34,512 nucleotides of DNA, taken from contig JAHJOQ010000064.1 of the NCBI GenBank assembly GCA_018820315.1, forward strand, positions 1 through 34,512. Reading direction: 5' to 3'. This stretch comes from Candidatus Zixiibacteriota bacterium (GTDB lineage: Bacteria > Zixibacteria > MSB-5A5 > JAABVY01 > JAHJOQ01). How positions within the stretch are numbered: the stretch's first letter is position 1; each line of letters opens with the position of its first letter. The position numbers were made by a program, and so were the translations under genes. Of this stretch, positions 1,521 to 11,741 are shown one piece after another. Below the pieces are notes generated by a model that saw only the letters and a program-made list of their open reading frames with translations, was not told the DNA's origin and did not search any database.

Positions 1521-1549
1521 TTGCCATATAGCGCGAAACCGGCTATGAT
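1521..1549 (+). promoter_or_regulatory. Sigma70-type promoter for gatD
   Basis: TTGCCA (1521-1526), a 17-bp spacer, then TATGAT (1544-1549). It sits between the upstream terminator and the gatD GTG at 1612, giving a 5' leader of about 55 nt. Confidence 0.6.
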
Positions 1550-1611: not shown

Positions 1612-2997
1612 GTGACTAATTCGGCATATCAGGGTTACAAGGGCGCCGCGCTTGACAAGCTCAAAGAACTCGGGGTGAGAGTCTGGTGCGACGTGGAAGT
1701 TACAACCACCAAGGGTCAGTTCATCGGCGTAATCCTGCCGAGATCAGAGACCGGCGATGCGGATCATATCGTGCTCAAAATGCACAACGGTTACAATGTC
1801 GGTGTCAAAGTCGATTCGATCATGTCGGTGAAAGAGATCGGCTACAAAGAGGCGCATTACAAGATTCCTGAATCGGAGTTTCCGACCAGTCCCGACAAGC
1901 CGAATGTCACACTGCTCGGAACTGGCGGTACCATTGCCTCGCGCCTCGATTACCGCACCGGCGCTGTCATTCCTGCGTTCACTCCGGGCGAACTATACGG
2001 TGCGGTGCCGGAACTTGCCGACATCTGCAATTTGAAGACCGAGAAGCTGTTCGGAGTATTCTCCGAGAATATGGGACCGGAGCAGTGGATCGCGACAGCG
2101 AAGGCGATCGGTCGAGAGATCGAAAACGGCGTCGATGGTATCGTGATTGGCCACGGCACCGACACGATGCATCACACGGCGGGGATTCTCTCATTCATGG
2201 TTCAGGATTCGCCAGTGCCGATCGTTATGGTAGGATCGCAAAGATCGTCCGATAGGCCATCATCGGATGCCGCATTCAACCTCAGATGCGCCGCGCATAC
2301 CGCAGCATGTGGTGATATTGCCGAGGTCATGGTCTGCATGTTTGGGCCTACATCGGATCAGTACAACCTGCTGCATCGTGGGACTCGCGTCCGCAAGATG
2401 CATTCGTCCTATCGCAGCACATTCCGCACAGTCGGCGATATTCCGATCGCGAAATGCACGCCTGACAGTGTTACACCTCTGCGCGAGGATTACAAGCGCC
2501 GCAGGAAAGACCGGAATGTAAAGATCGATACCGCATTCGAGGAGAAAGTCTCAATTGTATACTACTATCCCAACATGAAGCCCGATATCATCGAATCGCT
2601 GGTCGATCATGGCTACAAGGGCATCGTGATAGCCGGAACCGGCCTCGGACATGTCAACAAACCTCTCTACCAACCGCTGCGTAAGGCTATCAAACAGGGC
2701 GTCGCAGTCTACATGACCGTCCAGACACTATGGGGATATGTCCAGATGTTTGTCTATGACACCGGACGGGACCTTCTCGATGCGGGCGTAGTGCCTGCGG
2801 CGAACATGCTGCCGGAAGTTGCGTATGTCAAACTCTGCTGGGCGCTTGGACACACGACCGACCTTGAGGAAGTCAAGAAGATCATGCTGACTCCGATTGC
2901 CTACGAGATCACCGACGGCGAGCCACACAACGGATACCTCATCATGCAGGGCGGCCTCCCCGAGACCGAAGAGTTTATCGCGAAGTATGTGAGGTGA
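1612..2997 (+). CDS. gatD: Glu-tRNA(Gln) amidotransferase subunit D (archaeal type, asparaginase-like)
   Basis: A 461-aa protein with the GatD layout and length: an N-terminal Tudor/SH3-like beta domain (about residues 15-80, VWCDVEVTTTKGQFIGVILPR) fused to an L-asparaginase-type domain. Catalytic features are all visible: GTGGTIAS at 103-110 with the nucleophilic Thr107, HGTDTMHHTA from 181 with Thr183-Asp184, and Lys262 in RVRKMHSSYRSTF. GatD releases ammonia from glutamine and passes it to GatE, which amidates Glu-tRNA(Gln). The start is GTG at 1612: GGAGAG at 1600-1605 is 6 nt upstream, and the ATG at 1598 runs into a stop. Plain asparaginases lack the N-terminal domain, and gatE lies about 3.5 kb downstream on the other strand. 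GatDE is regarded as an archaeal enzyme, so finding it beside bacterial envelope genes is unusual. Confidence 0.93.
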   Translation: MTNSAYQGYKGAALDKLKELGVRVWCDVEVTTTKGQFIGVILPRSETGDADHIVLKMHNGYNVGVKVDSIMSVKEIGYKEAHYKIPESEFPTSPDKPNVTLLGTGGTIASRLDYRTGAVIPAFTPGELYGAVPELADICNLKTEKLFGVFSENMGPEQWIATAKAIGREIENGVDGIVIGHGTDTMHHTAGILSFMVQDSPVPIVMVGSQRSSDRPSSDAAFNLRCAAHTAACGDIAEVMVCMFGPTSDQYNLLHRGTRVRKMHSSYRSTFRTVGDIPIAKCTPDSVTPLREDYKRRRKDRNVKIDTAFEEKVSIVYYYPNMKPDIIESLVDHGYKGIVIAGTGLGHVNKPLYQPLRKAIKQGVAVYMTVQTLWGYVQMFVYDTGRDLLDAGVVPAANMLPEVAYVKLCWALGHTTDLEEVKKIMLTPIAYEITDGEPHNGYLIMQGGLPETEEFIAKYVR

Positions 2998-3061
2998 AGG
3001 TTTGGAAGACATACGGAATCCAGGAGGAAAGAGGCCGAGTACTGGAAGCCACGAGAGACTA

Positions 3062-4369
3062 ATGGAGCCTAGCATGGTGGTAAAACAGAAGTTCTATCGG
3101 GACTATGTCTTGCCACTACTTAATGTAGAGCCCGCGGATACCAATTACGGTTCATTCCTAGAGATGGGATACATGGCATGGCGACTCGGAATAACGCAGT
3201 CGGACCTGAAGCGCTGCAGATTCGTTTTGGCCATGTGCCACGAGATTACAATGAAGTGGCCTATTGACTCGATATCTTTGATCTCGACCATGATGAGAGA
3301 ATACTACAAGGTGCACAGCAGGCGGAGCTTTGGTGAGAAACTATACGGTGACTATAGAGACGCTGAAAATGCGGATTTCAAAGCAGCCTATTTACTTAAT
3401 GTCTATAAAGTGATATTCGAAAATGACTTCCGCCTCTGGGCGACTATTCCATATGTTTACGCAGAATACATCTTGAACGCCAAAACAATTAGTGGTGATT
3501 TATCCCAATCTGTATTTCTGGGAGCAAGCGCAAAGTTGAAATCGATATCTGACAGTGAAACTCTATCGCGACGCGGCAACTTGAGCGATATTGTAGCTGG
3601 GTTCGACGCTAAGCTCCGCCACGCTGGCGCGGGGCATGAGGATTGGGAACTCGACGATTCAGGCGGCATAGTCTTCAGAGTTCGTGATCCGCGTTCAGGT
3701 AAGCTGAAGTCTTCTATAAATAAGACTTTAAGTGAGTTTGAATCTGATGTTGTCTCCTGTAGACGAACAATTTGGGTGCTTCACATGGGTGTTATAGCAT
3801 ACTTGAACAACAATCGCGTGCTTAGCTGTGAGATTCATGAGCAGCCAACGTTCAAAATCTCGGAAATGCGCGCCTATCTAGAAGACTTCGCGCTCGACCG
3901 AGGCTTGAGAGTTGCTAGGTTCGAGTGCAACATTGATCGTTCGCAAGTATCGCTTGGACTCTGCTATTCTCCGAACACAGAGGCCAGAGGTGGGACTGTG
4001 CGATTTGGCTCTGGCGAGGCATTTGATCTAGTGAGAATCGTAACCCGATCATCATATAAGAATCAGATTCTAGAGGTTCTGGAGTTTCTAATGCAGCACT
4101 TTGACCGTTCACGATTCCCCACTGTTGCGCTGGACATTTCTGATAAGACTGAGACCGTGGTCGCGTCCTTAGTTATTAAGTCAAACGAGCTAAGCAAAGT
4201 GGCGGCTGATCCCGGTAGTGGCGAAATGCCCGCGCTGCTAGTAGGCCAGTTGCCCGATGACGAGTGTGTGTTGATCACGGAACATGGAGTCCCGTTGGGA
4301 CATGGCAAGTTCATTGAGAAACAGCTTAAAGAGCAAGGATATGAAGTTATGGTCGAGCACTGCGAGTGA
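3062..4369 (+). CDS. Uncharacterised protein, 435 aa
   Basis: I do not recognise a family. The predicted product is soluble, with no signal peptide or membrane segment. The N-terminal half is mostly helical, with aromatic-rich segments (MGYMAWRLGI, DFRLWATIPYVYAEYIL). At R186-x5-H192 there is LRHAGAGH, which superficially resembles the R-x4-6-H of HEPN domains; this is only a hint. The C-terminal half alternates strands and helices and ends in VPLGHGKFIEKQLKEQGYEVMVEHCE. Codon use differs from the neighbours: more TTA, ATA, AGA and A/T third positions, suggesting later acquisition. The frame is open from TTG 3002, five bases past the gatD stop. ATG 3062 has a weak GAGAG upstream, and ATG 3074 has GGAG 6 nt upstream, so either may be used. 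It sits between gatD and an lpoB-like gene. Confidence 0.65.
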   Translation: MEPSMVVKQKFYRDYVLPLLNVEPADTNYGSFLEMGYMAWRLGITQSDLKRCRFVLAMCHEITMKWPIDSISLISTMMREYYKVHSRRSFGEKLYGDYRDAENADFKAAYLLNVYKVIFENDFRLWATIPYVYAEYILNAKTISGDLSQSVFLGASAKLKSISDSETLSRRGNLSDIVAGFDAKLRHAGAGHEDWELDDSGGIVFRVRDPRSGKLKSSINKTLSEFESDVVSCRRTIWVLHMGVIAYLNNNRVLSCEIHEQPTFKISEMRAYLEDFALDRGLRVARFECNIDRSQVSLGLCYSPNTEARGGTVRFGSGEAFDLVRIVTRSSYKNQILEVLEFLMQHFDRSRFPTVALDISDKTETVVASLVIKSNELSKVAADPGSGEMPALLVGQLPDDECVLITEHGVPLGHGKFIEKQLKEQGYEVMVEHCE

Positions 4370-4547
4370 CGGCGATAGCTTGCCAGTTGAAAAGCCCTTG
4401 TGCATCCTCTTCCAAGAAAACTCTTGCGCCATACATACCACATTTGTAGTATTCTGCCGAATGTTGAAACTTGACATCGTATTGTCAGTATGGATAGTTC
4501 GAAGAAACAGAGACATCGCTCATAAACCACAAGGAGAGGGTAGAATT

Positions 4548-5153
4548 GTGAAAAAGCTGATTTTTGTCTTGTTGATCCTCGCGGCGGCCGCATTCATATT
4601 CGGCTGCGGAAGTTCCAGGCAGGTCACGCGCATGGACCCCGAATCCCAGACCGATCTGTCGGGCAAATGGAATGAAACCGACGCCAGATTGGTCGCCGAG
4701 GAGATGATCTCCGACTGTCTGCGCCGCCCCTGGCTGACTACCTTCAACGCCGAGAAGGGGAGAAAGCCGGTCGTGACGGTCGGCAGAATTCGCAACAGCA
4801 GTTCCGAACATATAGACACCGAGACATTTACGAAGGATTTTGAGCGCGAACTGCTCAACTCCGGATCGGTTAGCTTTTCTGGCAGCAAGATTGAGCGCGA
4901 TGACGTTCGCGAAGAGCGGCTCGATCAGCGCGATTTCGCATCACCCGAGACTGTCAAGAAGCTGCGTGAGGAAACCGGCGCCGATTTCATTCTTCTCGGA
5001 TCGATCAAGAGTATCACCGATCAGATCGAGGGCAAGCAGACGATATTCTATCAGACCGATCTCGAACTGATCAATGTCGAGACAAATGAGAAAGTCTGGA
5101 TCGGCGACAAGAAGATCAAGAAGGGTATTGCGCAGAGCGGTACTAAGTTCTAG
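4548..5153 (+). CDS. LpoB-like penicillin-binding protein activator lipoprotein
   Basis: A 201-residue lipoprotein of the LpoB family. In enterobacteria LpoB is an outer-membrane lipoprotein that reaches through the periplasm to stimulate class A penicillin-binding proteins. The start is GTG at 4548, placing a basic MKKL in front of a hydrophobic run and the lipobox FGC-GSS at about residues 20-22. GGAGAGGG (4533-4540) lies just upstream. Family features are visible: DARLVAEEMISDCLRRPWL, then VVTVGRIRNSSSEHIDTETFTKDFERELLNSG, KLREETGADFILLGSIKSI, and a closing strand with TDLELINVETNEKVWIGDKKIKK. The open frame extends upstream to 4284, but that part is unrelated low-quality coding and the lipoprotein signal fixes the start. 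A COG3014-type lipoprotein follows 16 nt later. Confidence 0.88.
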   Translation: MKKLIFVLLILAAAAFIFGCGSSRQVTRMDPESQTDLSGKWNETDARLVAEEMISDCLRRPWLTTFNAEKGRKPVVTVGRIRNSSSEHIDTETFTKDFERELLNSGSVSFSGSKIERDDVREERLDQRDFASPETVKKLREETGADFILLGSIKSITDQIEGKQTIFYQTDLELINVETNEKVWIGDKKIKKGIAQSGTKF

Positions 5154-5169
5154 GTCAATCTTGGTATCA

Positions 5170-6564
5170 ATGACACGCGCTAAATCATGTATTCCGGCGC
5201 TTCTGGCGCTTCTAATTATATCCGGTTGCGGGTCTGTGCGGACCCGCACCGGCTTCTATGATCCGATCACTGTCGATCTGAAGAAGGGCGAATACGAGGC
5301 CGCAGTCGCTGGTGTCGAAGCCGCTAAGGAATCGAACAAGTACGAGCATAAAGATCGGTTTGTCTATTTCATCGATGCCGGAATGGCGAACCACTTTGCC
5401 GGAAATTTCGATTCGAGCAACGCAAGGCTCACTCTCGCCGAAAGCTCCGCAGAGGACCTTTTCACCAAAAGCATCAGCCGCGCCGCAGCGTCAATGCTCC
5501 TCAATGACAATGTTCTCGAATATGCGGGGGAAGACTACGAAATCCTCTACACCAATATCATCATGGCGCTCAACTATTTGATGTTGGGCAATTACGATGA
5601 CGCGTTCGTCGAGGTCAGGCGTGCGAATCTGAAACTCGATCTCCTCGATCAGAAATATGCCACTGCTGCCGAGAAGCTGCAGCGTGGATCTCCAGACGAT
5701 ACCGCGCGCATCGAGGTCGACTACAATGTTGAGAAAGTCCGATTCCACAACGACGCTTTCGCCCGGTATCTCAGCATGCATATGTATGCCGCAGGCGGCA
5801 AATGGGATGACGCCCGTATCGATTACGATTATCTGCGCGATGCGTTCAAATCGCAGCCGCATGTGTACAATTTCGAGATGCCGGAAGTTACGTACACTCC
5901 ACAAGGGGATGGAGTTATTCTGAGCGTAATCGGGATGGCGGGGCTGTCGCCGGTTAAAGAGGCGTTCGATCTGCGGATCAGAACAGACAAGGACCTCGGT
6001 CTGGTGCAGGTGCTCTATACTGATTCCGAGAATCACGAATCTGAGTACGGTCATCTGCCTATAGATATCGGTGAAGATTTTTATTTCAAGTTTTCGATTC
6101 CTCGGATAGTCGAGCGACCGACTACCGTCGATCGGATACGAGTTTTCGCCGGACCGCAGACAATCGGTGAACTACAACTTGTCGAGGATGTGTATCGCGT
6201 AGCCGAGGAGACATTCAGGGCGAAAAGCTCTCTGATCTATGTCAGATCAGTGCTGCGTGCTGTCTCGAAAGGGCTGTCAGCGCATCTGATGAAGAAGAAA
6301 GCTGATACCGGTGGGTTTGAGGGCTGGCTTAAGAAAGCCGCGATTGATGTGGCGACTGAGATTTCCGAAGGCGCGGACCTTCGCTGCTCACATCTGCTGC
6401 CGGGGAGAATCTATGTCGGCGATTTCGAACTGGAGCCGGGAGTATATGACTTGCGAATTGAATTTATCGATAAGGCGGGGAATCTGATTTGCGCCGAGGA
6501 ACTTCCCGGATATGAAGTCCGGTCAGGCGGATTCAATATTGTGCAGACAGTCTGCCTCAATTAG
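5170..6564 (+). CDS. COG3014-type lipoprotein, probable partner of LpoB
   Basis: A 464-aa lipoprotein. ATG 5170 gives a short basic start, a hydrophobic stretch and the lipobox ISGC-GSV at about residues 17-20. The middle part contains helical, TPR-like segments (NYDDAFVEVRRANLKLDLLDQKYATAAEKL; GGKWDDARIDYDYLRDAF) typical of the COG3014 lipoproteins. The C-terminal half is beta-rich and includes RTTVDRI-like and LPGRIYVGDFELEPGVYDLRIEF strands. From memory, members of this family often neighbour lpoB-like genes; the 16-nt gap and shared strand here fit translational coupling. No strong Shine-Dalgarno precedes 5170, which also suggests coupling to the upstream gene. Its biochemical role is unknown. 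The gene ends tail to tail with gatE, overlapping it by 8 bp (6557-6564). Confidence 0.72.
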   Translation: MTRAKSCIPALLALLIISGCGSVRTRTGFYDPITVDLKKGEYEAAVAGVEAAKESNKYEHKDRFVYFIDAGMANHFAGNFDSSNARLTLAESSAEDLFTKSISRAAASMLLNDNVLEYAGEDYEILYTNIIMALNYLMLGNYDDAFVEVRRANLKLDLLDQKYATAAEKLQRGSPDDTARIEVDYNVEKVRFHNDAFARYLSMHMYAAGGKWDDARIDYDYLRDAFKSQPHVYNFEMPEVTYTPQGDGVILSVIGMAGLSPVKEAFDLRIRTDKDLGLVQVLYTDSENHESEYGHLPIDIGEDFYFKFSIPRIVERPTTVDRIRVFAGPQTIGELQLVEDVYRVAEETFRAKSSLIYVRSVLRAVSKGLSAHLMKKKADTGGFEGWLKKAAIDVATEISEGADLRCSHLLPGRIYVGDFELEPGVYDLRIEFIDKAGNLICAEELPGYEVRSGGFNIVQTVCLN

Positions 6565-8476
6565 TCCGGAGTGCGTCAAAAAGCGTTTTGAGAACCAGCT
6601 CTCCCGGCAAGCTCCCGCGAACCCGAGACATAATTGCTCCCATCAGGTATTGGAACTTCCGTCTCTCACCATTGAAACTGATATTTTCGACCTTCTCGAC
6701 TTCTTCTCGGGCTATTTCTGTCAGATAACCGTTGTCCACCGTTCGATAATCTCTCTTCTCTACAATCTGCGCAAGAGTCGCAGGATTGCCGGATTGACAG
6801 AACTCGGTCAGAAGGTCGGGGATGGCCTCACGAGTGAACATCCCTTTCGAATACATCGAGAACAACTCAACCAGATTATTGTCGGTGACTCTCTCTGTAG
6901 GCAGACCTTTTCTGCGAAGGCTCTTGAGGGTTTGAGTCAGCACCACAGCGACAAGCTTCGGGTTGACATCAGTGTCTGCGACAATGCTATCGAATACTCT
7001 CGCTCTGTCGGATATCGTAAGCGGTCTGATGACATCTTCGCTTAACCCAAGCTCTCGCCATCGCTGCTCTTTTTCATAGGAGCGCTCCTGCAGATTATCC
7101 GCGATCTTCTTCAGTCTCTCGTCAGTTACTGCCAGCGGTGGAAGGTCTGTGTCGGGATACATCCTGTCCGGGCCAGGGAGGATACGCTCGAAATCCGTGT
7201 TTCCATTGCCGATATCCTGGCGTGTCTCGTTCGGCACCCCTCTGATTGCTTCGAGAGTCCGGAACTTGATCTCTTCAAGGGCTGTCTCGACATCTTGCGC
7301 CGTTCCCCAGACGACAATCACGGTATCGGTCAGCTTGCATCCGCAGTGATTCCTGATGGCGGTCCATTCATCAGTCGAGAGTTCCGATTGATCGGGTGCA
7401 TCCGAATGGAAAAGATTGGGCCGCTGGTCAATACATGCGACAACTTTGAGCCTACCGGAGTATTCCCAAGCAAGAGTATACCCCGGTTGAGTCGGATGAT
7501 TCAGAAGACCAGCGAAGCCATTGATCTTTGCGCATTTCACGACTCCTCCCGAATCGAGAGCCGAGCGGATCGAGGCCGATTTGGTGCCGGAGAGCAGATC
7601 CGTGAGGTCGTGATTGCTTAATACCAGACTTTTGCGGGAGATTCCTCTTGATTGGATAGCCGCCTTGATGTCCAGGAGCGCCTTTTGCCGCAACGCTTCG
7701 ACATGCGTCAGGTCGCGAACGTATCCGGTTTTGGCGACACCCTTGATTTCGACTCTCGTACCGCCATTGATGCTGACATTGACATCCTGCCGTACCGAAC
7801 CGATCCCGCGCCGCACTTTGCCGGACGCCTTGAGCAGTCTGCCGATCAGTTCATTAACTTCGGCGGCCTCAATCGGGCTTTTCATGTCGGGGTACGTTAT
7901 AACTTCCACGAGCGGAGTCGAGAGTCTGTCGGCCTTGAACGTAATTGTGTGACCGATATCCGATATTTCCCGGCAGGCATCCTCCTCGAGGCAGATCTGG
8001 ATAATTCTGATCCGGCGGTCTTTGTACGGCACCCATCCTTCAACGCCGACCACCACGGTCCGCTGAAATCCGGTCGGAATGCTGCCATCGAGATATTGCT
8101 TTCGCGATATGTGAATCTCGTCGACAATATTGCAGTTGAGCAGCAGCGAGATTTCGAGCGCGATGTCGAGCGCCTGCTGATTCAGCTCGAACGGCGGCGT
8201 ATCATCCATCTCATACGTGCATGTGCTTCCCTTGACAAGCTGGTAGATGACATTCTTCCGCGTCTTGAACTCCATCAATGCGGTGCCGTCATATTCCCCC
8301 AACTCCGAGAGGGTCGGGCGCATGTGCCGCAGGATCGTAGCATCGGGCGGCTCGTGACGCAATCCAACCGGACAGCGACAGAAGAGCTTGCGTTTTGTAT
8401 CGAGTTGCTGATGAATTTCCAGTCCGCACATGAAGCCGAGTTGGTCGAAATCTGCCGGCGGAAGTTGCGTTTTCAT
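6557..8476 (-). CDS. gatE: Glu-tRNA(Gln) amidotransferase subunit E (archaeal type)
   Basis: A 639-aa protein, the usual GatE length and clearly longer than bacterial GatB. It starts with the GatB/E signature FMCGLEIHQQLDTKRKLFCRCP (about residues 15-36) and continues through a kinase-like amidase/activation core (SRKQYLDGSIPTGFQRT; CLEEDACREI; VRQDVNVSINGGTRVEIKGV). At about 290-420 there is the AspRS-type GAD insertion that distinguishes GatE from GatB, then LPGPDRMYPDTDLPPLAV and a helical YqeY-like tail. It binds Glu-tRNA(Gln), phosphorylates the glutamyl moiety and amidates it with ammonia from GatD. The start is the ATG at 8474-8476, with AAGGA upstream. A promoter at 8517-8545 covers the longer open frame's start at 8545, so the longer start is excluded. 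Convergent with the COG3014 gene, divergent from the R-M gene. Confidence 0.93.
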   Translation of the reverse strand: MKTQLPPADFDQLGFMCGLEIHQQLDTKRKLFCRCPVGLRHEPPDATILRHMRPTLSELGEYDGTALMEFKTRKNVIYQLVKGSTCTYEMDDTPPFELNQQALDIALEISLLLNCNIVDEIHISRKQYLDGSIPTGFQRTVVVGVEGWVPYKDRRIRIIQICLEEDACREISDIGHTITFKADRLSTPLVEVITYPDMKSPIEAAEVNELIGRLLKASGKVRRGIGSVRQDVNVSINGGTRVEIKGVAKTGYVRDLTHVEALRQKALLDIKAAIQSRGISRKSLVLSNHDLTDLLSGTKSASIRSALDSGGVVKCAKINGFAGLLNHPTQPGYTLAWEYSGRLKVVACIDQRPNLFHSDAPDQSELSTDEWTAIRNHCGCKLTDTVIVVWGTAQDVETALEEIKFRTLEAIRGVPNETRQDIGNGNTDFERILPGPDRMYPDTDLPPLAVTDERLKKIADNLQERSYEKEQRWRELGLSEDVIRPLTISDRARVFDSIVADTDVNPKLVAVVLTQTLKSLRRKGLPTERVTDNNLVELFSMYSKGMFTREAIPDLLTEFCQSGNPATLAQIVEKRDYRTVDNGYLTEIAREEVEKVENISFNGERRKFQYLMGAIMSRVRGSLPGELVLKTLFDALRTN

Positions 8477-8516: not shown

Positions 8517-8545
8517 AATATATACTTCCATGATTGGCAGGTCAA
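8517..8545 (-). promoter_or_regulatory. Sigma70-type promoter for gatE
   Basis: On the minus strand, TTGACC (8545-8540), a 17-bp spacer and TATATT (8522-8517). The predicted transcript starts near 8510, about 34 nt before the gatE ATG. Confidence 0.7.
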
Positions 8546-8672: not shown

Positions 8673-11600
8673 ATGCAGAGACCAGACATCAAACCATCCA
8701 ATAAGGCGGTTCGAGACTATTACAAAACACTCGAAGGCTTTGATCGGCAGAGCATATCCCATGAGACTGCCGTTCGTGCCGCATTCCAGAATCTCCTCGC
8801 CGACACCGCGAAAGTCCGCAAATGGACACTGATTCCAGAGCTGGGGGACAAAGTCGACGGCAGGACTATCCGCCCCGATGGCACACTCCGCGACACCTTC
8901 CACATGCCGCGAGGCTACTGGGAGGCAAAGGACACTGCCGACGATCTTGACGCTGAGATCAAGAAGAAGATCGCCAAAGGCTATCCGATCAACAACACTA
9001 TCTTCGAAGATACGTGCCATGCAGTTCTCTTCCAGAACAAGCAGGAGGTGCAGCGCTTTGATCTCTCTGTGGCAAAAGAACTTACACTTCTGCTGAACAC
9101 TTTCTATTCCCATGAAGAACCGAACATCGAACAATTCGAGAAGGCTGTCGACGAGTTCAAGATTCGTGTCCCCGATCTTGCCCGGAGCCTTACGGAGAAA
9201 ATCGGACAGGCGCACAAAGATAACAAGAAGTTCATTGCGGCATTCGGAGACTTCTTCGGACTCTGTAAGAATTCACTTAATCCGAATATCAGCAAGGCGG
9301 CGGTTGATGAAATGCTGGTGCAACATTTGTTGACGCGACGGCTCTTTCAGACGATCATTGACAACCCCGATTTTGTGCACCGAAACGCTATCGCCGCCGA
9401 GGTCGAGAAGGTCATCGACGCTCTGGCAAGCAAGAGCTTCAGTCTGCACGAATTCCTCAAATCGCTCGATCAGTTCTATGTCGCCATCGAATCCGCCGCA
9501 CACGGACTCACTGAGTTTGGCGAGAAGCAGCACTTTCTAAATACCGTATATGAACGGTTTTTCCAGGGGTATTCGGTCAGAGTCGCCGATACGCACGGAA
9601 TCGTATACACTCCGCAGCCGATTGTCGATTTCATGTGCGCCAGCGTCGAGGAAGTCCTGAAGTCGGAATTCGGCAAGAGCCTCGGCAGCAAAGATGTCAA
9701 TATCCTCGACCCCTGCACCGGCACCGGAAACTTCATTGTCAATCTATTGCGGCGGGTGCAGAAACGTGATCTGAAGCGGGTTTACGGCGAACAGCTATTC
9801 GCCAACGAAGTCATGCTGATGCCGTATTACATCGCCGCGCTCAATATCGAACATGAATATTATGTGCGCACCGGTGAGTACGAATCATTCGACGGTCTCT
9901 GCTTCGTAGATACGCTCGATATGGCCGAACCCAAGCAGACGCAAATGGAATTCATGACAGAGAAGAACACGGCGCGTGTGAATCGTCAGAAAAAGACTCC
10001 GATCACCGTGATTATCGGCAATCCCCCGTACAACGTCGGTCAAATCAACGAAAATGATAATAATAAGAATCGGAAGTACAAAGTTATCGATAAAGGTATC
10101 AAGGACACCTATGCGAAAGACTCGAAAGCGACGAACAAGAACGCGCTATCCGATGCCTATGTGAAATTCTTCCGCTGGGCGACCAATCGGCTGGAGGGGC
10201 GCGACGGCATCGTCTGCTTCGTTTCAAACAACAGCTTTGTCGATCAGATCGCATTCGACGGCATGCGCAAGCATTTGCTTCAGGATTTCACACAAATATA
10301 CCATGTCGATCTTCACGGAAATGTCAGGAAAAACCCAAAATTGAGCGGAACAACACACAATGTCTTCGGAATACAGGTCGGAGTCGGAATCACGGTTGCC
10401 GTTCGCAAGGGCGACCACAAAAGCAGAAAACTGGTGTATGAGCGCGTCCCGGAGTTTTGGCGAAAGGAAGAGAAGCTCGACCACCTGCGACAGATGGGAT
10501 CGGTCGGATCGGTCAAGTGGACTCGACTCAGACCCGACAGCCGGTTTGCATGGTTGACCTCTGCACATGGCGACGAATACGAGGCATTCATTCCGCTGGG
10601 CACCAAAGAGGCGAAAGCAGCCGGTGCGCGAGAACCAAGTGTGATATTCAAGCTCTATTCCGGCGGTGTGAAGACAAATCGCGATACTGTCGTTTATGAT
10701 TTCGACAGAGATGCGCTCATCCGGGGGGTCAAGCAGTTCATCGAAGACTACAATTCCGAGGTCGATAGATATCAACGCGCCGATGGAAAGCCGGACGTTG
10801 ATTCTTTTGTGAAGTACGATAAGATCAAATGGAGCGAATCGCTGAAAAACAGCGTTGTTCGCGGCGCACGTGCTGCATTCATCGAAGAGAACCTCAGAGT
10901 GTCAACATACCGGCCCTTCTTAAAGCTGAGCCTGTTCTTTGATGCGCTTCTCAATGAAAGGCGCTACCAGCTACCAGTGATCCTTCCCACCCCAGAATCG
11001 GAAGCTGACAATCGGCTGATGTGCGTAAGCGGCATTGGAAGTAGTAGGCCATTCCAAACGCTCATTGTCTCTGGTATTCCATGCCTTGATATGCTTGAGA
11101 AAACGCAATGCTTCCCCTTCTACGTCTATGACGAAAATGGGAGCAATCGGCGGGAGAATATCACCGACTGGGCGTTGAAGACATTCCGCGAACATTACAA
11201 CGACAAGAAAATCGGCAAGTGGGATATATTCAACTATGTCTACGGGCTGCTACATCACCCTGTCTACTGCGAGAGATATGCCGACTGCCTCAAGCGAGAG
11301 CTTCCCCGCATCCCATTCGCGCCAGATTTCCGCGCGTTCGCCGAAGCGGGTAAGAGGCTCGCCGGGCTGCATCTCGACTATGAGAAGATCGAGCCGTATG
11401 AACTCGAATGGATCGAGGCCAAGGGAATTCCCCTGTCGTATCGAGTCGACGACAAAATACGACTCAGCAAAGACAAGTCTGAACTCAAAGTCAACGATTC
11501 GCTAACGCTCGGTGGCATTCCGAAGAATGCGTTCGAATATCGCCTCGGCAACCGGTCGGCACTCGATTGGGTAATCGACCAGTACAGAATCAAGACCGAC

Positions 11601-11741
11601 AAGCGAAGCGGGATTCTCAGTGATCCGAATCGCCCGGATGACGAAGAGTATATCGTTCGGCTTGTCGGTCAGGTGATCAATGTCAGCATTGAAACCATGA
11701 AGATCGTAAGATCTCTTCCAGTGCTCGGTTTGCCTTCCTGA
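8673..11741 (+). CDS. Single-chain (Type IIG/ISP-like) restriction-modification enzyme with N6-adenine methylase
   Basis: A 1022-aa fused nuclease-methyltransferase. Near the N-terminus, RPDG (Asp69) followed by GYWEAKD (Glu84-x-Lys86) forms a PD-(D/E)xK nuclease core. A helical connector leads to an N6-adenine methylase domain: ILDPCTGTGNF with motif I at 346-352 and the catalytic motif IV NPPY at 450-453, after VIIGN. The C-terminal half (about 620-1000) is the expected target-recognition region, with blocks typical of Type ISP/IIG enzymes (NSFVDQIAFDGMRKHL; FNYVYGLLHHPVYCERYA). No SF2 helicase motifs are present, so it is shorter than translocating Type ISP enzymes. It should cut and methylate DNA as one polypeptide. 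No separate methylase or specificity gene is nearby. The ATG at 8673 has only a weak ribosome site. Confidence 0.88.
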   Translation: MQRPDIKPSNKAVRDYYKTLEGFDRQSISHETAVRAAFQNLLADTAKVRKWTLIPELGDKVDGRTIRPDGTLRDTFHMPRGYWEAKDTADDLDAEIKKKIAKGYPINNTIFEDTCHAVLFQNKQEVQRFDLSVAKELTLLLNTFYSHEEPNIEQFEKAVDEFKIRVPDLARSLTEKIGQAHKDNKKFIAAFGDFFGLCKNSLNPNISKAAVDEMLVQHLLTRRLFQTIIDNPDFVHRNAIAAEVEKVIDALASKSFSLHEFLKSLDQFYVAIESAAHGLTEFGEKQHFLNTVYERFFQGYSVRVADTHGIVYTPQPIVDFMCASVEEVLKSEFGKSLGSKDVNILDPCTGTGNFIVNLLRRVQKRDLKRVYGEQLFANEVMLMPYYIAALNIEHEYYVRTGEYESFDGLCFVDTLDMAEPKQTQMEFMTEKNTARVNRQKKTPITVIIGNPPYNVGQINENDNNKNRKYKVIDKGIKDTYAKDSKATNKNALSDAYVKFFRWATNRLEGRDGIVCFVSNNSFVDQIAFDGMRKHLLQDFTQIYHVDLHGNVRKNPKLSGTTHNVFGIQVGVGITVAVRKGDHKSRKLVYERVPEFWRKEEKLDHLRQMGSVGSVKWTRLRPDSRFAWLTSAHGDEYEAFIPLGTKEAKAAGAREPSVIFKLYSGGVKTNRDTVVYDFDRDALIRGVKQFIEDYNSEVDRYQRADGKPDVDSFVKYDKIKWSESLKNSVVRGARAAFIEENLRVSTYRPFLKLSLFFDALLNERRYQLPVILPTPESEADNRLMCVSGIGSSRPFQTLIVSGIPCLDMLEKTQCFPFYVYDENGSNRRENITDWALKTFREHYNDKKIGKWDIFNYVYGLLHHPVYCERYADCLKRELPRIPFAPDFRAFAEAGKRLAGLHLDYEKIEPYELEWIEAKGIPLSYRVDDKIRLSKDKSELKVNDSLTLGGIPKNAFEYRLGNRSALDWVIDQYRIKTDKRSGILSDPNRPDDEEYIVRLVGQVINVSIETMKIVRSLPVLGLPS

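Follow-up and report, generated by a model that had tools for sequence, protein, structure and literature searches.

GatDE of a separate, largely bacterial clade in a Zixiibacteriota genome and its co-occurrence with GlnRS

The gatD and gatE genes of the window

The window analysed here, a stretch of 34,512 nucleotides from a Candidatus Zixiibacteriota bacterium (GCA_018820315.1, contig JAHJOQ010000064.1), encodes both subunits of the amidotransferase GatDE. As a sequence-only reading of this DNA had noted, GatDE is considered archaeal; PMC8762117 and PMC9499178 describe it as a signature protein found in archaea exclusively, and state that archaea make Gln-tRNA by the indirect route only. We find that the window's GatE belongs to a separate clade, termed type B here, and that type-B GatDE is not the oddity of a single genome: it is widespread over bacterial phyla. 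The two genes are:

1612..2997, forward strand: gatD, encoding the glutaminase-side subunit of type-B GatDE; 461 residues, GTG start; identified by TIGR02153, GatD_N, the Asparaginase N and C domains and the catalytic residues
6557..8476, reverse strand: gatE, encoding the kinase/transamidase-side subunit of type-B GatDE, which carries the GAD insertion and a tail of YqeY type; 639 residues, ATG at 8476; identified by TIGR00134, the motifs RHMRPTLSELGEY and RKQYLDGSIPTGFQR, and the match of model and fold

Both genes are full-length, in agreement with the earlier claim that the subunits are intact. GatD scored 527 bits against TIGR02153, the NCBI equivalog for archaeal GatD (cut-off 324), and carries the Pfam domain GatD_N (53 bits) followed by Asparaginase N and C domains. 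The catalytic residues Thr107, Thr183, Asp184 and Lys262, which had been listed together with the N-terminal domain, are all kept, and were invariant in every aligned GatD of the archaeal type (25/25) and of type B (87/87). Type I/II asparaginases share the Asparaginase domains and the catalytic residues, and are distinguished from GatD by GatD_N and by score (527 bits to gatD_arch, 157 bits to L-asparaginase 2 with a cut-off of 506).

GatE scored 514 bits against TIGR00134, the NCBI equivalog for archaeal GatE (cut-off 320). Its kinase core is homologous to that of GatB from bacterial GatCAB, from which it differs by the GAD insertion, by its GatD partner and by a score of 154.7 bits against the gatB equivalog, below the cut-off of 314.8. 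The longest open reading frame (ORF) of gatE extends upstream of the ATG at 8476 to a TTG at 8545; GatE residue numbers for motifs, model and swapped positions are counted from the codon after the ATG. A Pfam search gave no match for the GAD insertion. In the predicted model of GatE (mean predicted local distance difference test score, pLDDT, 88.7), residues 280-411 align with AspRS chains (Z up to 14.7) over a region which we take to be the GAD domain, indicating that the insertion is present as proposed. The C-terminal part of the model aligns with N-terminal GlnRS chains (Z 11) and with YqeY chains (Z 8), and the fold matches archaeal GatE in 2d6f (Methanothermobacter) and 1zq1 (Pyrococcus). 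These archaeal enzymes are the top match in the PDB by sequence and by fold, and share with the window's proteins the two subunits, the domains and the catalytic residues.

The genes are separated by 3,559 bp and lie on opposite strands, as had been described, and their GC content is unremarkable (gatD 0.547, gatE 0.533, window 0.510). Genomes and loci are labelled G and L below, G000 being the window's own genome and G001 that of a sister genus. In G001, gatD is adjoined by homologues of the window ORFs 22-405 and 417-1436, and gatE by a homologue of the window ORF 5074-6564. Because G001 keeps window homologues next to each gene, a chimeric contig is unlikely. The assignment to a bacterial host was borne out. 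The claim that each gene has its own good promoter did not hold up: a site with 10 of 12 matches lies upstream of each, but the region contains 9 promoter-like sites, compared with 6.7 +/- 2.8 in shuffled sequence, which is no more than chance.

1521..1549, forward strand: promoter-like hexamers 5′ of gatD, 10/12 matches, not above chance
8517..8545, reverse strand: promoter-like hexamers 5′ of gatE, 10/12 matches, not above chance

Also adjoining gatE is a gene for a 1022-residue protein (window 8673-11741, forward strand) whose coupler, N6 methylase and specificity domains are those of a type ISP restriction-modification protein.

A separate clade of GatDE and its spread

The sequence-only reading had offered two placements, within archaea or in a bacterial clade. 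Trees did not support the first; the second stood in part, as the clade is largely bacterial but includes 11 Thermoplasmatota genomes. A GatE tree of 60 rows, built with IQ-TREE and rooted on GatB, recovered type B as a clade (support 99/99) sister to archaeal GatE (100/97). Within type B the bacterial rows group together (97/88), and the archaeal rows, which amount to about three lineages, lie near the base. A quick tree of 164 GatE rows returned the same two clades, and a GatD tree placed the archaeal-type rows on one side of a branch with support 100, by a quick method that gave long-branch warnings. Because type B forms its own clade beside archaeal GatE, the label "archaeal" is wrong for the window's GatE.

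The two clades carry different signatures. The archaeal residues L51, A64, E91, V127, N132 and E441 (window numbering) are replaced in type B by M, T, D, Y, I and D, and type B has the motifs HMRPT[LM] and RKQYLDG[ST]IPTGFQR where archaeal GatE has LRPT and RKxVxDGS. In the core of type B, several invariant residues are swapped for others. Tyr127 and Pro133 of type-B GatE are shared with bacterial GatB, whereas archaeal GatE has Val and Thr; over 14 class-swapped positions, GatB matches type B at 2, archaeal GatE at 3 and neither at 9.

Type-B GatE also differs from archaeal GatE in its tail. The mean pairwise identity of the core is 0.66 in type B and 0.55 in the archaeal type, whereas at a core identity of 0.6-0.7 the tail identity is 0.36 for the archaeal type and 0.17 for type B (0.14 within the window's phylum, 0.19 for archaeal type B). 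For GatB, six pairs from five phylum genomes in the same range of core identity gave tail identities of 0.36-0.45. By these sequence comparisons the tRNA-binding tail of type-B GatE is conserved about half as much as expected; it is still predicted to be a folded, YqeY-type domain. Conservation within type B is among the highest in RHMRPTLSELGEYDGTALMEFKT. This segment contains the sole stretch of the model below 50 pLDDT (residues 52-66), which would fit a loop that becomes ordered when a ligand or partner binds. The loop that bears R49 and R52 is retained and occurs in archaeal GatE as well.

The window's phylum was sampled as a single class of 132 genomes, of which 69 passed the GatE cut-off. 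GatD was present in 29 of the 58 nearest, the set used for comparison with GlnRS below. To follow type B further, genome contigs were scanned with two peptide patterns, yielding at least 589 stretches, at least 586 of them relatives by tblastn; the scan is biased to type B because both patterns derive from type-B sequences. The best 80 of these relatives, to which all counts of named loci refer, span many bacterial phyla and two archaeal metagenome-assembled genomes (MAGs). Their titles name Eisenbacteria, KSB1, WOR-3, Planctomycetota, Phycisphaerae, Aminicenantes, Coatesbacteria, Ignavibacteria, Bacteroidota, Latescibacteria, Caldisericia, Caldithrix, Gemmatimonadota, Krumholzibacteriota, Myxococcota, Elusimicrobia, Acidobacteria, Cloacimonetes, Fermentibacteria, Neomarinimicrobiota and one Gammaproteobacterium. 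For L163, L165, L171, L185 and L223 the record is titled as a chromosome or as a complete genome.

These loci bear on the split arrangement in the window, which had been used to argue against uptake as a simple recent operon. In 50 of the 80, gatE and gatD lie on one strand less than 400 bp apart; six have them on one strand otherwise, three on opposite strands, and in 21 gatD falls outside the stretch. With the compact form in 50 of the 59 loci whose stretch includes gatD, the arrangement in the window looks like a local rearrangement.

Among 77 Thermoplasmatota genomes, 68 were above the GatE cut-off and 50 of these were typed by sequence (18 untyped): 39 have the archaeal type only and 11 have type B, two of which (G200, G209) also keep an archaeal-type copy. 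The archaeal-type copies in these two genomes sit on fairly long end branches (1.41 for L260 of G209, 0.84 for L262 of G200), as if relaxed.

GlnRS, glnA and tRNA-Gln around type-B GatDE

A search of the window's genome, which the sequence-only reading had proposed, found a full GlnRS (762 bits), one GltX, GatA and GatB, along with one AspRS-sized and one AsnRS-sized PF00152 protein. The genes glnA, gatA and gatB stand in a row on one strand (L310 8445-12696, G000:C73). This row, with gatA-gatB behind glnA, is the GatAB counterpart of the glnA-gatE-gatD rows seen elsewhere.

Within the phylum, GlnRS scored above the cut-off in 25 of 29 genomes with GatD and in 9 of 29 without it (Fisher p 4e-5). 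With fragments included the counts were 27/29 and 13/29, and the association persisted in a within-family permutation (p 0.0036); in one family (f8), four genomes have both GatD and GlnRS and four have neither. Exceptions occur in both directions: GlnRS is missing from G010 and G024, which have GatD, and a full GlnRS is present in nine genomes that lack GatD. For the named loci, the genomes of 50 of the 80 were searched, and GlnRS was above the cut-off in 32 of them and not in the other 18. Related genomes are not independent in any of these counts.

The same tie was observed in Thermoplasmatota, where GlnRS exceeded the curated cut-off in 17 of 77 genomes: 9/11 of those with type B, 2/39 with the archaeal type only, 6/9 with no GatE over the cut-off and 0/18 of the untyped. 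In many cases the archaeal GlnRS gene has tRNA-Gln genes next to it, whose ends are A1-U72 with either A73 or G73. Across L290-L305, which hold 16 of the 17 GlnRS matches, several are flanked by both tRNA-Gln(CUG) and tRNA-Gln(UUG), as if a cassette had moved. GlnRS genes in archaea contradict the 2022 review PMC9499178. The listings of a literature search outside subscription papers, partly swamped by the word "gate" and by community surveys, contained no report of GatDE in bacteria or of GlnRS in archaea.

Some candidate lines of evidence were set aside. GlnRS pieces in G025 and G132 were considered as relics proving replacement of GlnRS by GatDE; both lie at contig ends and count as fragments only, and an isolated C-terminal GlnRS piece inside a chromosome occurs in G144 alone. 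The apparent absence of GatB from G016 and G023 was seen with GatE queries only. These recover no GatB, or hardly any, in G039 as well, which lacks both GlnRS and GatD, and the absence was therefore not used. Arg358 of GltX was present in 25/25 proteins compared, and is uninformative on GluRS discrimination here because it also occurs in GlnRS-less genomes, which should need a non-discriminating enzyme.

We then considered the genes beside gatE and gatD. In 7 of the 80 loci glnA adjoins one of them (rough binomial p 2e-6, kinship ignored); of the seven linked glnA, five score as type I GlnA above the cut-off, one is truncated at a contig end and one is divergent. In G016 and G023, gatE, gltX and tRNA-Gln(CUG) are all on one strand, and in G031 and G046 gltX, glnS, gatE and gatD fall within one stretch. 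The 80 loci contain four tRNA genes: a tRNA-Glu (L155), a tRNA-Met (L215), and tRNA-Gln(CUG) in L151 and L162, the two archaeal loci, where it adjoins gatE or gatD. Between the GatDE-linked and the GlnRS-linked tRNA-Gln(CUG), 66 of 72 aligned positions are identical in G133 (the D loop counted as one difference) and 71 of 72 in G143.

In the window's genome both clear tRNA-Gln genes have U1-A72 and G73. Their similarity to tRNA-Glu is 0.56-0.57 for tRNA-Gln(CUG) and 0.47-0.52 for tRNA-Gln(UUG), a modest gap. The same genome holds two odd tandem tRNA-like genes (L148 9619-9764, G000:C155:19118-19263), one with the anticodon TGA and no long variable arm, the other with the anticodon TTG, G1-C72 and A73, below the Rfam cut-off. 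Many genomes of the window's phylum have tRNA-Gln(CUG) next to gltX, whether or not they encode GatDE (L325, L326, L327, L333, L288, L289, L149); the pair was rejected as a marker of GatDE, since it also occurs in genomes lacking both GatD and GlnRS (G015, G029, G022).

Possible functions of type-B GatDE

We consider the chances about even that type-B GatDE is a working amidotransferase acting on Glu-tRNA(Gln) alongside GlnRS, with altered tRNA recognition. In favour of this are the invariant catalytic residues, the core that is more conserved than in archaeal GatE, the fold shared with 2d6f and 1zq1, the co-occurrence with GlnRS, and the linkage to glnA, gltX, glnS or tRNA-Gln, which recurs across several lineages. 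Its catalysis, tRNA substrate, preference for CUG and partner contact are what we infer from the comparisons above. GluRS, or GlnRS in error, would load Glu onto a fraction of tRNA(Gln); this may be the CUG isoacceptor, which is encoded next to gltX. GatD would then release ammonia from glutamine, and GatE would phosphorylate the Glu side chain and amidate it in place. Since the GatE tail has drifted, recognition would shift to residues 49-73, a conserved loop on the acceptor side, and perhaps to a partner synthetase, in place of the tail used in archaea.

A fuller version of this model is put forward tentatively, and we regard it as rather unlikely. Here, type-B GatDE would belong to a GlnRS-linked package, in bacteria and some archaea, that splits tRNA(Gln) into two shares. 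One would be charged directly by GlnRS; the other (a CUG isoacceptor, for which some archaea have a separate gene within or next to the gatDE-glnA cluster) would be charged with Glu and amidated by type-B GatDE, which would have given up tail-based recognition and might act on synthetase-held tRNA.

Several observations weigh against amidation of Glu-tRNA(Gln). GatDE is mostly absent where GlnRS is absent, while a spare route would be expected to outlive GlnRS loss. The window's genome has GatA and GatB, which may amidate the same tRNA, and its tRNA-Gln genes have U1-A72 and G73, whereas archaeal GatDE reads tRNA with A1-U72 (PMC9499178). Most loci show no linkage to glnA, gltX, glnS or tRNA-Gln, and the selection of the four gltX-containing stretches of the phylum was itself guided by hints of gltX in the tables. 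Moreover, the tRNA-binding tail has drifted, with an identity of 0.17 compared with 0.36 in archaeal GatE.

The last point also counts in favour of the main rival, a possible but doubtful one, in which type-B GatDE has moved off tRNA, GlnRS having relieved it of this duty, and uses ammonia from glutamine to amidate another carboxylate, on a metabolite, a peptide or a protein. A drifted tail beside a strongly conserved core, the exchange of invariant core residues and the presence of GlnRS would all suit such an enzyme, and linkage to glnA suits any enzyme that uses glutamine. However, tRNA-Gln(CUG) lies near gatE or gatD in the two archaeal loci and near gltX and gatE in G016 and G023, the tail is still predicted to fold as a YqeY-type domain, and the R49/R52 loop of archaeal GatE is retained.

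Next comes plain redundancy, which we consider improbable. Here an ordinary GatDE would serve as a spare beside GlnRS with no special tie, and the co-occurrence would reflect lineage history or gene transfer. Related genomes are indeed not independent, GatDE and GlnRS genes may travel together, and the window's genome also keeps GatA and GatB beside GlnRS; but GatD and GlnRS agree within families (as in f8 and in the permutation test), the tie recurs in Thermoplasmatota, and tail drift is unexpected for an unchanged enzyme.

Finally, an assembly or binning artefact (archaeal genes in bacterial bins or, for archaeal type B and archaeal GlnRS, the reverse) is suggested by the draft or MAG status of most genomes here and by the two loci under archaeal names, but is highly improbable, and for the window is refuted, given the flanking genes conserved in G001, the 69 of 132 phylum genomes above the GatE cut-off, the chromosome and complete-genome records, a glycerol-1-phosphate dehydrogenase gene (483 bits, cut-off 413) about 5 kb from the archaeal type-B gatE of G209, and the archaeal A1...U72 form of the tRNA-Gln genes adjoining archaeal GlnRS.

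If confirmed, GatDE in many bacterial phyla and GlnRS in archaea would mean that both halves of the rule fail, namely that GatDE is confined to archaea and that archaea use the indirect route only. Arguments that place GatDE in the last universal common ancestor on the basis of its archaea-only range would then need to be redone, and type-B genomes would offer a case, open to testing, in which glutamine is encoded by the direct and the indirect route side by side. The co-occurrence prompts one to ask why a cell would retain GatDE as well as GlnRS.

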